Shown one piece after another: positions 20,015 through 25,993 of a DNA stretch of 46,206 bases; the stretch's first letter is position 1, and every line of letters starts with the position of its first letter. A program made the translations under genes and the position numbers. Location: positions 1 through 46,206 of the forward strand of contig SKIF01000112.1 in the NCBI GenBank assembly GCA_007116575.1, given 5' to 3'. The DNA comes from Paracoccaceae bacterium. Lineage in GTDB: Bacteria; Pseudomonadota; Alphaproteobacteria; Rhodobacterales; Rhodobacteraceae. Below the pieces are notes generated by a model. That model made no database searches, was not told where the DNA came from, and saw only the letters and a list, made by a program, of their open reading frames with translations.

Positions 20015-22390
20015 ATGAGCGATTTCAACACTGATCTGCCCCTCTCCGCCCGCGCCATGGCCGCGCGCCCCGCGCCCTATCTGGACGGGCTGAACCCCGC
20101 GCAGCGACAGGCGGTCGAGGCGCTGGACGGGCCGGTGCTGATGCTGGCGGGCGCGGGCACTGGCAAGACCAAGGCGCTGACGGCACGAATCGCGCATCTG
20201 CTGAACACCGGGCGGGCCTGGCCGTCACAAATCCTGGCCGTGACCTTCACCAACAAGGCCGCGCGCGAGATGAAACTGCGCGTCGGCGGCTACCTGGGCG
20301 AGGTGGTGGAGGGGATGCCCTGGCTGGGCACGTTCCATTCAATCAGCGCGAAGCTGTTGCGCAATCATGCCGAGCTTGTCGGGCTGAAATCAAGCTTCAC
20401 GATTCTGGACAGTGACGACCAGTTGCGCCTGCTCAAGCAGTTGATTGCCGCGGCGAATATCGACGAAAAACGCTGGCCCGCGCGGCTGATGGCCTCGATC
20501 ATCGATCAGTGGAAGAACCGCGCCTGGACCCCCGAACAGGTGCCCTCATCCGAGGCATCGGCCTTCAACAATCGCGGCACCGAAATCTACGCGGCCTATC
20601 AGGAACGGCTGAAAACGCTCAATGCCTGCGATTTCGGCGATCTGCTCTTGCATTGCGTCACCATCTTTCAGGCCCACCCGGATGTGCTGGAAAGCTACCA
20701 GAAGAAATTCCGCTATATTCTGGTGGACGAGTATCAGGACACCAATGTCGCGCAATATCTATGGCTGCGGCTCTTGGCCTCGGCGCATCGCAATATCTGC
20801 TGCGTGGGCGATGACGATCAGTCGATCTATGGCTGGCGCGGGGCGGAAGTGGGAAATATCCTGCGGTTCGAGCGTGATTTCGAGGGCGCGCAGGTGGTGC
20901 GGCTGGAACAGAATTACCGCTCCACCCCGCATATCCTCGCCGCCGCCAGCCAGGTGATCGCGGGCAACGAAGGGCGGTTGGGCAAGACGCTCTGGACCGA
21001 GGCGCGCGCAGGCGAAAAAGTCCGGCTGATCGGCCATTGGGATGGCGAGGATGAAGCGCGCTGGATCGGCGAGCAGATCGAGGATTTGTCGCGTGGCACG
21101 CGCGGGCTGGAGCCGTTCAGCCTGAACCAGATGGCGGTGCTGGTGCGCGCCAGCCACCAGATGCGCGCCTTCGAGGACCGGTTTCTGACCATCGGCCTGC
21201 CGTATCGCGTCATCGGTGGCCCGCGTTTCTATGAACGCATGGAGATCCGTGACGCGATGGCCTATTTTCGCCTTGCGGTTTCGCCCGGCGACGATCTGGC
21301 TTTCGAGCGGATCGTGAACACCCCCAAGCGCGGCCTGGGCGACAAGGCGCAGCAGGTGATCCAGCGTTTTGCGCGGGCGAATGGCGTGCCACTGGTGCAA
21401 GGGGCCGCGCTGGCGATCGAGGCAGGCGAGATCAAGGGCAGGGGTGCGGGGCAGTTGCGCGCGCTGATCGAGGGGATTGCGCGCTGGCATGCGGCGGTGG
21501 GCAATACGGGGCCAATGGCCGAGGATGACCTGATCGAGACCTTGGCCCCTGCGTCCGCGCAATCGCATATCGAACTGGCCGAAACGATCTTGGAGGAATC
21601 GGGCTACACAGAGATGTGGCTCAACGACAAGACGCCCGAGGCTCCGGGGCGGCTGGAAAACCTCAAGGAACTGATCAAGGCGCTGGAAGAATTCGACAAT
21701 CTGCAGGGCTTTCTCGAACATATCGCGCTGATCATGGACAATGACAGTGACGCCGCCGAGGCCAAGGTCACGATCATGACGCTGCACGGTGCCAAGGGGC
21801 TGGAATATCCGGTGGTCTTTCTGCCGGGCTGGGAGGATGGGCTGTTCCCGTCGCAACGCTCGATGGACGAAGCCGGTCTCAAGGGGTTGGAGGAAGAGCG
21901 CCGCCTGGCCTATGTCGGGATCACCCGCGCCGAGCAGCTTTGCACGATCAGCTTTGCCGCCAACCGGCGCGTCTATGGCCAGTGGCAATCGCAGATGCCC
22001 TCGCGCTTTGTCGATGAATTGCCCGCCGAGCATGTCGAGGTGCTGACCCCGCCGGGGCTCTATGGTGGCGGCATGGCCGGGGCTGCCAGCAATATCGAGG
22101 ACCGCGCCACCCGCGCCGATGTCTACAATTCCCCCGGCTGGCGGCGGCTGCAGGCCGCGAATGCCCGTGGCACGGGCCAGCCGCGCGAGGCGCGCGAGAT
22201 GGTGATCGACGCCACCGCCAGCCCGGCTTTCGAGACCGGAGAGCGCGTGTTTCACCGTAAATTCGGCTATGGACGCGTGACGTCGGTCGAGGGTGACAAG
22301 CTCTTTATCGAGTTCGAGAAATCCGGCCCGCGCCATATCGTGGCGAAATTCGTCGTCCCCGCCGCCCAAGCGGATGACGTGCCGTTCTGA
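20015..22390 (+). CDS. UvrD/PcrA-type ATP-dependent DNA helicase
   Basis: 791 residues; superfamily 1A 3'-5' helicase used in excision repair, mismatch repair and clearing of RecA or stalled polymerase. All helicase motifs are present: Q-motif GLNPAQRQAVEAL, Walker A AGAGTGKT, motif Ia TFTNKAAREM, motif II VDEYQDTN, motif III VGDDDQSIYGWRGA, motif IV LEQNYRST, motif V TLHGAKGLEYPVVFLPG, motif VI AYVGITRAE. The last ~60 residues (FETGERVFHRKFGYGRVTS, LFIEFEKSGPRHI) form the Tudor-like tail of PcrA/UvrD that contacts RNA polymerase. Upstream is a consensus LexA box. It converges with the sRNA cluster that ends 16 bases after its stop. Confidence 0.95.
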   Translation: MSDFNTDLPLSARAMAARPAPYLDGLNPAQRQAVEALDGPVLMLAGAGTGKTKALTARIAHLLNTGRAWPSQILAVTFTNKAAREMKLRVGGYLGEVVEGMPWLGTFHSISAKLLRNHAELVGLKSSFTILDSDDQLRLLKQLIAAANIDEKRWPARLMASIIDQWKNRAWTPEQVPSSEASAFNNRGTEIYAAYQERLKTLNACDFGDLLLHCVTIFQAHPDVLESYQKKFRYILVDEYQDTNVAQYLWLRLLASAHRNICCVGDDDQSIYGWRGAEVGNILRFERDFEGAQVVRLEQNYRSTPHILAAASQVIAGNEGRLGKTLWTEARAGEKVRLIGHWDGEDEARWIGEQIEDLSRGTRGLEPFSLNQMAVLVRASHQMRAFEDRFLTIGLPYRVIGGPRFYERMEIRDAMAYFRLAVSPGDDLAFERIVNTPKRGLGDKAQQVIQRFARANGVPLVQGAALAIEAGEIKGRGAGQLRALIEGIARWHAAVGNTGPMAEDDLIETLAPASAQSHIELAETILEESGYTEMWLNDKTPEAPGRLENLKELIKALEEFDNLQGFLEHIALIMDNDSDAAEAKVTIMTLHGAKGLEYPVVFLPGWEDGLFPSQRSMDEAGLKGLEEERRLAYVGITRAEQLCTISFAANRRVYGQWQSQMPSRFVDELPAEHVEVLTPPGLYGGGMAGAASNIEDRATRADVYNSPGWRRLQAANARGTGQPREAREMVIDATASPAFETGERVFHRKFGYGRVTSVEGDKLFIEFEKSGPRHIVAKFVVPAAQADDVPF

Positions 22391-22405
22391 ACCCTGTCAG
22401 ACATG

Positions 22406-22446
22406 AAAAAGGCGACGACCCCAGGGAGGAGGAGGGGGTCGCCGCC
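22406..22446 (-). terminator. Intrinsic terminator closing the CcsR-like sRNA cluster
   Basis: On the minus strand, GGCGGCGACCCC (22446-22435) pairs with GGGGTCGTCGCC (22422-22411), one pair being G-U, and TTTTT follows at 22410-22406. The loop carries the CUCCUCCUCCCU motif, so the last sRNA hairpin is also the terminator. The convergent uvrD stop is only 15 bases away. Confidence 0.8.
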
Positions 22447-22487
22447 AAATTTGCAAGACCCCAGGGAGGAGGAGAGGGCCCTTGCAA
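22411..22487 (-). ncRNA. CcsR-like sRNA unit 3 (two stem-loops)
   Basis: Two hairpins: 22487-22451 (stem TTGCAAG/CTTGCAA with GC-rich top) and 22446-22411 (12-base stem). Each loop shows CUCCUCCUCCCU, at 22474-22463 and 22434-22423, which are 40 bases apart. R. sphaeroides CcsR RNAs carry the same CCUCCUCCC loop motif in tandem units behind a DUF1127 gene. The motif can pair with Shine-Dalgarno sequences. This unit ends in the terminator. Confidence 0.75.
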
Positions 22488-22515
22488 GATCTGGACCCGA
22501 AGGCCCGGTATTCGC

Positions 22516-22590
22516 GAAGCGCAATGGCCAGGGAGGAGGAGGGCCAAGGCGCTTCTTACGTCCACCCCAGGGAGGAGGAGGGGGCGGGCG
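22516..22590 (-). ncRNA. CcsR-like sRNA unit 2 (two stem-loops)
   Basis: Hairpins at 22590-22559 (G-U-containing stem CGCCCGCCCC with GGGGTGGACG) and 22555-22516 (lower stem GAAGCGC/GCGCTTC, upper stem TGGCC/GGCCA). Loop motifs CUCCUCCUCCCU lie at 22580-22569 and 22541-22530, which are 39 bases apart. Stem sequences differ from those of the other units while the loops are identical, which points to selection on the loop. Confidence 0.72.
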
Positions 22591-22637
22591 TTCTTGTGCC
22601 GGGTGTCGGCGCACACGCGCCTTGCCCGGAAGAGGTG

Positions 22638-22706
22638 ACGATGGCCTAGGGAGGAGGAGTGGCCATCGTCGCAGTCAAACCCCCAGGGAGGAGGAGGGGG
22701 GTCTGA
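22638..22706 (-). ncRNA. CcsR-like sRNA unit 1 (two stem-loops)
   Basis: Starts six bases after the DUF1127 stop codon, so it must be processed from the same transcript. Hairpins at 22706-22675 (TCAGACCCCC with GGGGGTTTGA) and 22669-22638 (perfect nine-base stem ACGATGGCC/GGCCATCGT). Loop motifs lie at 22696-22685 and 22659-22648, which are 37 bases apart. Confidence 0.75.
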
Positions 22707-22712
22707 AATCCG

Positions 22713-22925
22713 TTATTTGCCGTAGGCGGCCTCATGCGCCAGTCGCGAGATCATCGAGCGGCAGATGCCAAGATCGGTCAGTTCTCGTGTGCTAAGCTGA
22801 GCCAGCTCGGAATAGGTCTTGTTATACACGCGCCGACGCTCAAGCCGGTCCGTGAATTGCGCCATAAGCCCGCTGAAACGACCAACGTGGCGCTGGGTGC
22901 CCAATGTTTCGGCCAAGTGTGCCAT
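22713..22925 (-). CDS. Small DUF1127 protein, CcaF1-like
   Basis: 70 residues. The C-terminal half is a DUF1127 domain (RVYNKTYSELAQLSTREL, TDLGICRSMISRLAHEAA), a short Arg-rich helical hairpin. In R. sphaeroides the homologue CcaF1 (RSP_6037) is a 71-residue RNA-binding protein co-transcribed with the CcsR sRNAs and involved in their maturation. Here length, domain and the downstream CCUCCUCCC stem-loops all match. The ATG at 22925 is chosen because it gives the family length and follows a GAAGG; an in-frame start at 22958 would add 11 residues. The known homologue is induced by alternative sigma factors RpoHI/RpoHII; I could not confirm such a promoter here. Confidence 0.88.
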   Translation of the reverse strand: MAHLAETLGTQRHVGRFSGLMAQFTDRLERRRVYNKTYSELAQLSTRELTDLGICRSMISRLAHEAAYGK

Positions 22926-22979
22926 GGTTATGCTACCTTCGTCTCTGGGCGCGATCACCTGTTTCGCGCTGTCGAAATG

Positions 22980-23007
22980 AAGATAACAATTCGCTGCGGC
23001 TGCACAA
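22980..23007 (-). promoter_or_regulatory. Weak promoter candidate for the DUF1127-sRNA transcript
   Basis: The minus strand reads TTGTGC (23007-23002), a 16-base spacer, then TATCTT (22985-22980), 55 bases before the ATG. This is sigma-70-like; the R. sphaeroides homologue uses RpoH promoters, which I did not recognise here. The rest of 22926-23151 shows nothing else definite. Confidence 0.3.
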
Positions 23008-23151
23008 TGGAGAATGCTGCATTGCGGCTATGCGCTAGAAGCATGTTTACGCGGGGTAATCCTGAGATTGACCAGTTTATGCACCAAAGGCGCGAGATTT
23101 GCTCAAAACGGTTGCAGAACCGGGATTCATCCGGCTTTCGGGGCGACGATC

Positions 23152-24800: not shown

Positions 24801-25200
24801 TCTGCCCCCGGGGCAAATCTGGAATCAGATGGAATCGACACGAAACCGGCTCGCGGGGCGAATCACTCGACCGTGAACCTGCGTGATTCGCACTTCACAG
24901 CGCCGTTTTTCCATGTGATTCTTTTTGTGAGGCCGCTGTGCCGCGCGAAAACTGTGTCTGATTGGCCACATTTCGCCCTATGTTGGAAGTGCGTTGGAAT
25001 TTTATGGAACTCCGATCCAACTGCGATTATGGCCCCGTAGTCTACGCCTATTTCGTTTAGTTCTTTGTATGTTCTTACTACATTTTGTATTTTAGTGTTC
25101 TTTTCTACAGGATGCTGTGGATAACTATTGGAAAACTTAATGCCAGTCAGGCGCAATGAAGTGATCTTTTTTGTTGCTGACCACAAAGTTCCATGGCATT
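24801..25200. other. Non-coding stretch with AT-rich island upstream of the mraZ leader
   Basis: 400 bases without a convincing gene. From about 24890 to 25190 the DNA is clearly AT-richer than its surroundings, with T-rich runs. A hairpin GCGAATCAC (24858-24866) with GTGATTCGC (24883-24891) follows apbC and may end its transcript. A promoter-like TTGTAT-N17-TATTTT lies at 25065-25093 (plus), but such matches are cheap in AT-rich DNA. A 107-codon minus-strand frame (24863-25186) has no ribosome site and no recognisable sequence. Could be a remnant of foreign DNA or a regulatory region. Confidence 0.5.
25116..25124 (-). promoter_or_regulatory. Consensus DnaA box
   Basis: The plus strand reads TGTGGATAA, the exact reverse complement of TTATCCACA. 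It lies within the AT-rich island about 350 bases before mraZ. Only one such box was found here, so an origin is not claimed; DnaA acting as a transcription factor for the dcw cluster is possible. Confidence 0.55.
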
Positions 25201-25217
25201 CCAGTTAGCAAGATAAA
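25189..25217 (+). promoter_or_regulatory. Candidate dcw/UpsM promoter
   Basis: TTCCAT (25189-25194), 17-base spacer, GATAAA (25212-25217). Transcription from about 25223 would give a leader of roughly 245 bases before mraZ and a terminated RNA of about 196 bases, near the 206 bases reported for R. sphaeroides UpsM. The boxes are imperfect. Confidence 0.35.
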
Positions 25218-25222
25218 CGGGC

Positions 25223-25418
25223 AGCAAAGGGGCGACAAAGACCCCGCAGAGGCAACGGTTTCATACAGGCACCCGCTTATCTGGAAGAAGAAAAGAGATC
25301 CGGCGCGCTCGCGAGCAGCATCCCCTCCCCCCAAGGAGCGAGCGCCAACCGGGCACCCAGCGATGGGACAGTCGGCGGATCGGGCAGTGGCAGCAGCTCG
25401 ATCCGCCGTTTTCATTTT
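25223..25418 (+). ncRNA. upsM: UpsM-like sRNA, the terminated 5' leader of the dcw mRNA
   Basis: R. sphaeroides has an abundant ~206-nt sRNA, UpsM, made when the long leader of the mraZ operon ends at an intrinsic terminator. The same layout is present here: long untranslated stretch, hairpin GGCGCGCTCGC (25302-25312) with GCGAGCGCC (25338-25346) exposing a C-rich loop (CCCCTCCCCCC, 25322-25332), then a strong terminator (25373-25418), then mraZ 50 bases on. The 5' end is estimated from length and a weak promoter; it is not read from sequence. Homology is argued from synteny and architecture. Confidence 0.65.
25373..25418 (+). terminator. Intrinsic terminator inside the mraZ leader
   Basis: CGGCGGATCG (25373-25382) pairs perfectly with CGATCCGCCG (25399-25408) and is followed by TTTTCATTTT. 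It stands 50 bases before the mraZ GTG with no gene between, so it must act on leader transcripts; read-through would be needed for dcw expression. Confidence 0.85.
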
Positions 25419-25468
25419 GCGCCCCGGAGTTTTTGCGGCGCAGACGATGGCAAAGGAACCGACGACCC

Positions 25469-25993
25469 GTGTCGCGCAGGTTTGTCAATACCTACCACCA
25501 GAAGGTGGACGGCAAGGGCCGCGTGTCGGTGCCCTCGAGCTTCCGGCGGGTGCTGGAACTGGGCGACCCCGACTGGAAACCCGGTGATCGCGCGAATTTC
25601 TACATCAATCACGGTCTCGATTATCAGCGCAGGCTGGATTGCTACACAATGCGCGCGATGGAAGAGATTTACGACCGCATCGACCTGATGGAAGACGGGA
25701 CCGATGACCGGATCGAGATGGAAGCGACCTTCCATTCCAATTCGATGATTGCGGAAATCGACAAGGACGGGCGGATCATCATTCCTCTGGAATTGCGCGA
25801 GAAACTGGGGCTGGAGCCCGATGAAGTCGCGAAATTCGTCGGGCGCAACACGATCTTCCAGATCTGGAAGGAAGAGACCTATCAGCAAGCCATAGGTGCC
25901 CTGAATGACAGGCTGACAGCCGGCCGCTCGGCCAATTATGACCCGCGCGTCAAGCTGCCGAGCAAATCGCAGCCCGCACCGCCCGAGGACTGA
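25469..25993 (+). CDS. mraZ: MraZ, dcw cluster transcriptional regulator
   Basis: 174 residues with two AbrB/SpoVT-like MraZ domains. The first (about 3-75) holds [20 protein letters not shown], the second (about 85-145) [20 protein letters not shown] and [19 protein letters not shown]. MraZ forms rings, binds repeats ahead of its own operon and can repress it. The GTG at 25469 is chosen: AAAGGA lies 11 bases upstream and the protein then starts at the conserved [10 protein letters not shown]. The C-terminal tail ends KSQPAPPED. The stop overlaps rsmH by one base. I could not identify MraZ binding boxes confidently. Confidence 0.93.

Follow-up and report, generated by a model that had tools for sequence, protein, structure and literature searches.

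A ccaF1-CcsR-type operon with six anti-Shine-Dalgarno loops in a member of the Rhodobacteraceae, with pyruvate dehydrogenase probably among its direct targets

In Rhodobacter (Cereibacter) sphaeroides, the gene of the DUF1127 protein CcaF1 is cotranscribed with the small RNAs CcsR1-4 from an RpoHI/RpoHII-dependent promoter, the transcript being processed with the participation of RNase E; the name CIN1 denotes DUF1127 genes associated with such CcsR-like RNAs, and CcaF1 itself binds RNA and alters the levels of CcsR (PMC10253847). The flhR gene is targeted by CcsR1-4, with effects on glutathione and on the pyruvate dehydrogenase (PDH) complex (PMC8307010). Loops with the same anti-Shine-Dalgarno motif, CCUCCUCCC, on diverged stems are found in NfeR1 (alpha-r14, Rfam RF02344) of Sinorhizobium, which is activated by LsrB and silences ntrBC through base pairs with the ntrB start (PMC10746234). 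Finally, in Rhizobiales, VtlR/LsrB control DUF1127 genes together with the AbcR small RNAs, and the VtlR motif reported in rhizobia is CAATGCAGCCATGCA (PMC12595884).

The window considered here, i.e. the whole analysed stretch of 46,206 nucleotides from a Paracoccaceae bacterium, contains a locus for which the data support orthology to the R. sphaeroides ccaF1-CcsR operon (CIN1, cuckoo RNA) in another genus of the Rhodobacteraceae. Loci of this kind are already in print, and the window is a further example. What appears to be new, as judged by comparison of sequences, is the match of the loops to the pdhA ribosome site, the probable exemption of ccaF1 from its own loops and a VtlR-like box before ccaF1. 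In a literature search that covered sources other than the primary papers (Billenkamp 2015, Gruetzner 2021, Reinkensmeier 2015), we noticed no paper on the pdhA site, the ccaF1 exemption or the shared box.

The plus strand of the window carries six exact copies of AGGGAGGAGGAG (at 22423, 22463, 22530, 22569, 22648 and 22685), i.e. the minus strand at 22406-22706 contains CUCCUCCUCCCU six times. These are the sole exact copies of the motif in the assembly (2,652,155 bases in 142 contigs, 87% complete; none in the backward-read control). When up to two mismatches are allowed, the window holds 7 matches against a mean of 3.95 in shuffled sequences, so what carries weight is that six of the copies are exact and lie within 275 nt. 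The minus strand of the array (320 nt) folds with -150.7 kcal/mol (z = -6.97, 0/100 shuffles equally stable), and its predicted fold comprises six hairpins, every loop of which contains the motif, so that all six hairpins of the first-pass annotation stand at their positions, with exact motifs placed in predicted loops. The DUF1127 gene that it had put upstream on the same strand is likewise present, as a PF06568 match at 22713-22925 of the minus strand, and its stop codon is separated from the first CCTCCTCCC by 18 nt. The gaps between the motifs (37, 79, 39, 67 and 40) arrange the hairpins into three two-hairpin units, which are separated by two motif-free hairpins. The features are as follows, with helices numbered as in the alignment of 16 arrays described below.

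22713-22925, minus strand: ccaF1 orthologue encoding a DUF1127 protein of 70 aa (PF06568, 44.4 bits, cut-off 23.3; alignment with 9 members of the family; same gene order in Cereibacter johrii)
22675-22706, minus strand: unit 1, hairpin 1 (loop motif at 22685-22696; fold; helices 1-2)
22637-22670, minus strand: unit 1, hairpin 2 (loop motif at 22648-22659; fold; helix 3, both-sided change in 6 of 10 pairs)
22592-22633, minus strand: linker hairpin between units 1 and 2, without motif (fold; helices 4-5)
22558-22591, minus strand: unit 2, hairpin 1 (loop motif at 22569-22580; fold; helix 6, no pairs with both-sided change)
22516-22555, minus strand: unit 2, hairpin 2 (loop motif at 22530-22541; fold; helix 7, both-sided change in 11 of 12 pairs)
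22493-22506, minus strand: linker hairpin between units 2 and 3, without motif (fold; helix 8)
22451-22487, minus strand: unit 3, hairpin 1 (loop motif at 22463-22474; fold; helix 9)
22406-22446, minus strand: unit 3, hairpin 2, motif hairpin and terminator (loop motif at 22423-22434, then U5; fold; helix 10)

As to the intrinsic terminator that had been proposed to close the array, it does exist as a hairpin with a U-run (U5 at 22406-22410, directly after the motif hairpin at 22411-22446), but it is not a separate element: the sixth loop hairpin doubles as the terminator. Among 89 arrays, a run of T4 or longer follows 48 of the 89 last hairpins vs 27 of the 610 internal ones.

The alignment comprises 16 arrays of the same genus, namely the window and the 15 loci of L130-L145 that have at least five motifs. 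Changes on both sides of a pair occur in at least one species in 32 of 65 stem pairs, and 95.8% of the cells are paired; neither value was reached by any of 500 shuffles. While the stems vary, the motif columns are nearly invariant, the departures from CCUCCUCCC being confined to one loop in L132 and one in L142. Conservation of the loops in relatives, on which the first-pass annotation had staked its reading, is thus borne out, since they hardly vary across the 16 species. The linker hairpins (22592-22633 and 22493-22506) also show compensating changes within the genus and may be processing sites.

The same alignment bears on the question of the strand. In the minus-strand reading, the paired columns contain 888 Watson-Crick, 100 G-U, 13 A-C and 30 other cells, and the prevalence of G-U over A-C points to the minus strand as the functional RNA. 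One could suppose, alternatively, that the plus strand is functional, read-through from uvrD, whose end on this strand (22390) is 15 nt away from the array, producing hairpins with GGAGGA loops that could bind a CsrA-like protein. Three of the six window hairpins are indeed more stable on the plus strand and the other three on the sense strand; among 699 hairpins, the sense strand is the more stable one in 437 and the antisense strand in 257, so that in the window folding energy alone leaves the strand unfixed. Against the plus strand, however, speak the position of the U-run, behind the array as read on the minus strand, the DUF1127 gene upstream on that strand and the counts of G-U and A-C cells, by which we rule out the CsrA-like hairpins; we give this possibility hardly any credence.

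The assignment of the minus-strand RNA to the CcsR/CcaF1 system, made initially from the letters alone, is strengthened by its layout. As in ccaF1-CcsR1-4 of R. sphaeroides (CIN1, RF02791), the DUF1127 gene comes first and is followed on the same strand by tandem two-hairpin RNAs with CCUCCUCCC loops and by a terminal terminator. The CIN1 gene order (uvrD, pyc, mrp, mraZ, rsmH) was compared via C. johrii (L088), the sister of R. sphaeroides, which shares with the window the order pyc, uvrD, array, ccaF1, mrp, mraZ, rsmH. In contrast to the three units and six loops of the window, C. johrii has eight loops, as expected for four two-loop RNAs. The covariance-model search suggested for checking the assignment gave a divided answer: the three units are matched by Rfam CcsR1 (RF02791) with 50.9, 37.8 and 22.7 bits (E = 2.3e-11, 1.7e-7 and 0.005), but even the best score misses the curated cut-off of 65.3, which is reached by one of the 30 genomes searched. 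The low scores are explained by the stems, which have diverged from those of RF02791; the window genome differs from it also by the additional pdhA site with 11 possible loop pairs. RF02344 scores similarly (48.9, 47.8 and 37.3 bits, cut-off 58.8 missed), but its layout, in which three hairpins form a single RNA with its own promoter and no DUF1127 gene in front, is not that of the window, where the hairpins are paired into three units behind a protein gene, although these may have a separate promoter as well.

Paired CCTCCTCCC motifs were found in 106 of 149 genomes, each genus of the family being represented by a single one; the backward-read control also matches in 23 of the 149, at least partly because CCCTCCTCC sits within the arrays. 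A DUF1127 gene accompanies 24 of the 30 loci fetched by the paired-motif pattern. Conversely, the set of 98 DUF1127 genes, made up of 80 named loci (from 513 confirmed by a protein alignment search), 17 loci of the same genus and the window, has at least two motifs downstream in 89 cases, with 2 to 14 motifs per array. Exactly six motifs with similar spacing are present in 14 of the 16 same-genus arrays, the other two being L140, which stops at a contig end, and L142 with five. In the neighbourhood of the 80 loci, many of them cut by contig ends, mrp was found 71 times, mraZ 56, uvrD 43 and pyc 39; the HIT gene present in the window was found at none of them. One locus of another genus (L024, G051:C4:691706-692456) consists of seven CcsR1-like units, five with an identical spacer between the two motifs, apparently due to a recent tandem duplication. 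L279, L280, L288 and others (G060, G058, G095) are DUF1127-linked arrays with shortened loops, e.g. UUCCUCCCU; in some of these genera the pdhA site is changed too, which may reflect a joint change of loop and target.

The ribosome sites of the ccaF1 genes form a distinct case. For 97 ccaF1-like genes an ATG could be chosen (L111 lacks one), and the region from -21 to -4 was scored, which in the window is the following.

22928-22945, minus strand: ccaF1 ribosome-site region, without a loop-complementary stretch of at least 5 nt

A loop complement of at least 5 nt was found at none of the 89 ccaF1 sites with two or more motifs downstream, vs 124 of 885 in the background and 4 of 8 DUF1127 genes followed by at most one motif. 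The ccaF1 sites read GAAGG, AAAGG, TGAGG and similar. The paralogue control within the genus has the same direction but shows it weakly: such a complement stands at 0 of 12 genes with arrays vs 3 of 18 others, and among the latter one lacks a usable start. The genome of the window has another DUF1127 gene (L037, G000:C61:78623-78733), which is not followed by an array and, unlike ccaF1, contains GGAG in its ribosome site. The sequences suggest that the ccaF1 message is exempt from silencing by the loops of its own transcript; lacking loop pairing at its ribosome site, it would permit the CcaF1 protein and the RNAs to be made together. Such avoidance also speaks indirectly, on evolutionary grounds, for pairing between loops and ribosome sites in vivo.

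As for the targets, GGAGGAGG followed by ATG within 3-12 nt occurs at 10 places in the genome of the window (backward control 0), one of which is the start of pdhA; its product, P0001, is the PDH E1 alpha subunit (TIGR03182 equivalog, 514.8 bits, cut-off 393.85). The other candidates include the genes of a response regulator, a TRAP solute-binding protein, sarcosine oxidase alpha (a 400-aa fragment with 507.8 bits to TIGR01372, below the cut-off of 1164) and a family-less 91-aa protein; the remaining places look like chance. The pdhA site, CAGGGAGGAGG, could form 11 unbroken pairs with CCUCCUCCCUG, and the predicted duplex energies are -24.9 kcal/mol for pdhA with the loop, -17.2 for pdhA with the 16S tail and -9.7 for ccaF1 with the loop. 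To follow this site among relatives, 44 pdhA loci were fetched, of which 40 were usable (L190, L215, L218 and L219 are without a start). A match of at least 6 nt to GGGAGGAGG is present in 37 of the 40, namely in 14/14 within the genus and in 23/26 in other array-bearing genera (kinship ignored). The control gene gltA, taken from the same 28 named genomes, gives 0/28 at this length and 4/28 at 5 nt; matches of at least 6 nt precede 39 of 871 other genes of the ccaF1 loci, 14 of 84 other genes of the pdhA loci (pdhB and pdhC included) and 9 of 42 genes in the highest-scoring one among 17 orthologue families. Of the pdhB/pdhC starts, 18 of 28 match within the genus and 14 of 46 elsewhere (one genome counted twice). 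The pairing of the loops with AGGAGG-type ribosome sites, which had been proposed for the window initially, thus gains comparative support from the counts at ccaF1, pdhA and gltA, and pyruvate dehydrogenase, the complex that makes acetyl-CoA from pyruvate, is, by its sequence, likely to be a direct target of the loops. The conservation of a loop-complementary pdhA ribosome site across genera would mean a direct route, which can be tested by one reporter assay.

One might object that the pdhA match is merely the strong Shine-Dalgarno sequence of a highly expressed gene, GGAGG being the ribosome's own target, and that PDH is affected via FlhR with no direct regulation. Billenkamp 2015 reportedly ascribes the effect on PDH in R. 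sphaeroides to FlhR. Both flhR as a CcsR target and an effect on PDH are published (PMC8307010). The objection is also favoured by a comparison group of 27 genomes that lack exact paired motifs; among the 24 that gave pdhA, 8 keep the 6-nt match. The difference from array-bearing genomes has p = 9e-7 against 37/40 and p = 1e-4 against the 23/26 of other genera (kinship ignored), but matching by GC content weakens it, since at 58% GC or above the match is present in 16/19 array genomes vs 8/15 without the canonical array (p = 0.07, kinship ignored). The 27 genomes are, however, not clean negatives, as 13 of them contain CcsR-like arrays with changed loops (RF02791; 16 matches, of which the three weak ones in G015, G017 and G130 were set aside by eye as chance). 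The arrays of G064 and G089 lie outside the inspected stretch. When the 24 genomes are divided by RF02791 at E <=0.01, a threshold also reached by 2 of 14 control genomes, the pdhA match is kept in 3 of the 12 with 'no array' and in 5 of the 12 with a 'degenerate array'. A strong Shine-Dalgarno sequence as such would hardly account for the absence of the match from gltA, which also belongs to central metabolism (0/28 in the same genomes), or for the lower best value of the 17 orthologue families (9/42). The sites of pdhA, moreover, read GGGAGG in 29 of 40 cases and AGGAGG in 11. The G before GGAGG merely wobbles with the 16S tail and pairs with the C of the loop; the ribosome would thus favour A, and the preference for GGGAGG counts for loop pairing. 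We therefore consider the Shine-Dalgarno explanation unlikely, though deserving some weight.

Another possibility is that the array serves as a sponge for an RNA-binding protein (CcaF1 or another one) or for 30S subunits, the loop being a protein-binding site without action on messages. Six to fourteen identical loops per transcript on diverged stems would suit a titrating device, and ccaF1 lies on the same transcript, its R. sphaeroides counterpart binding RNA and altering the CcsR levels (PMC10253847). A pure sponge, however, predicts neither the avoidance at the ccaF1 site (0/89) nor the retention at pdhA (37/40), and the related NfeR1 loops act via pairing with a message (PMC10746234). A sponge alone seems to us improbable; a decoy role may exist in addition to pairing.

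With reasonable confidence, we thus regard the locus as an orthologous ccaF1-CcsR operon, whose loops would block GGAGG-rich ribosome sites, the PDH messages being likely direct targets. The model starts from the observed sequence, the structure with its compensating changes, the gene order and the complementarity, from which we infer expression, processing and silencing in the following way. A single minus-strand transcript would carry the message of the DUF1127 RNA-binding protein and then three two-hairpin RNAs, which an RNase, by analogy with R. sphaeroides, would cut apart. Each RNA would expose two CCUCCUCCC loops, able to pair with GGAGG-rich ribosome sites and so to block translation. 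The probable targets would be the pdhA messages and, in this genus, also those of pdhB/pdhC.

The control of the operon may be approached through two elements upstream of ccaF1.

22980-23007, minus strand: candidate promoter consisting of TTG (23005-23007), 17 nt and GTTATCTT (22980-22987); TTGTGCA is conserved upstream of ccaF1
23020-23033, minus strand: candidate LysR-type (VtlR/LsrB-like) box GCATAGCCGCAATG, the commonest form in the family being GCATNGCNGCATTG (motif wording after PMC12595884 and PMC7486931)

In RpoHI/RpoHII promoters, the part that is conserved is the TTG at -35 (PMC3441632), and many relatives have CCATGTT-like -10 boxes upstream of ccaF1. The core TTGTGCAnnYGCAG is present in 77 of 89 ccaF1 upstreams vs 0 of 487 other upstreams, the latter being a background from which regions were excluded by position only (55 dropped). 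Within three mismatches, the published VtlR motif, which the box before ccaF1 resembles, occurs in 80 of 89 ccaF1 upstreams vs 2 of 487 others and 8 of 2000 tiles; the window's own box is a weak match with 4/15 mismatches. A box of this kind (at most three mismatches) also precedes 7 of the 8 DUF1127 genes that have at most one motif downstream, and it thus goes with the gene and not with the array. PhaR (AniA) was considered as the regulator owing to TGC-n3-GCA palindromes (CTGCnnnGCAG is exact in 50/89 ccaF1 upstreams vs 13/487), but appears less likely, as its consensus TGCRNYGCASMA is exact in only 12/89 vs 9/487 and the VtlR motif fits better. In contrast to the VtlR/LsrB systems described, the host of the window belongs to a different order of bacteria, and the regulator gene here is only presumed. 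The shared LysR-type box would join the rhizobial VtlR/LsrB small-RNA network to that of Rhodobacter. Tentatively, and with somewhat more doubt than belief, we may suppose that in Rhodobacteraceae the ccaF1-cuckoo array works as a valve that directly controls the acetyl-CoA supply: a VtlR/LsrB-type regulator and an RpoH-type sigma factor would drive the operon, the loops would shut the PDH operon via GGGAGG sites kept for that purpose, and the ccaF1 site would have evolved to be unsilenceable.

Two more observations concern the neighbourhood of the operon. The uvrD gene on the plus strand and the array terminator on the minus strand converge at 22390-22446, and uvrD may share this terminator or lack one of its own. 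On the other side, a leader of about 600 nt precedes mraZ (PF02381) at 24841-25470 of the window; in R. sphaeroides, the small RNA UpsM is made from the long mraZ leader, which is said to be a feature of the family (PMC5089854).
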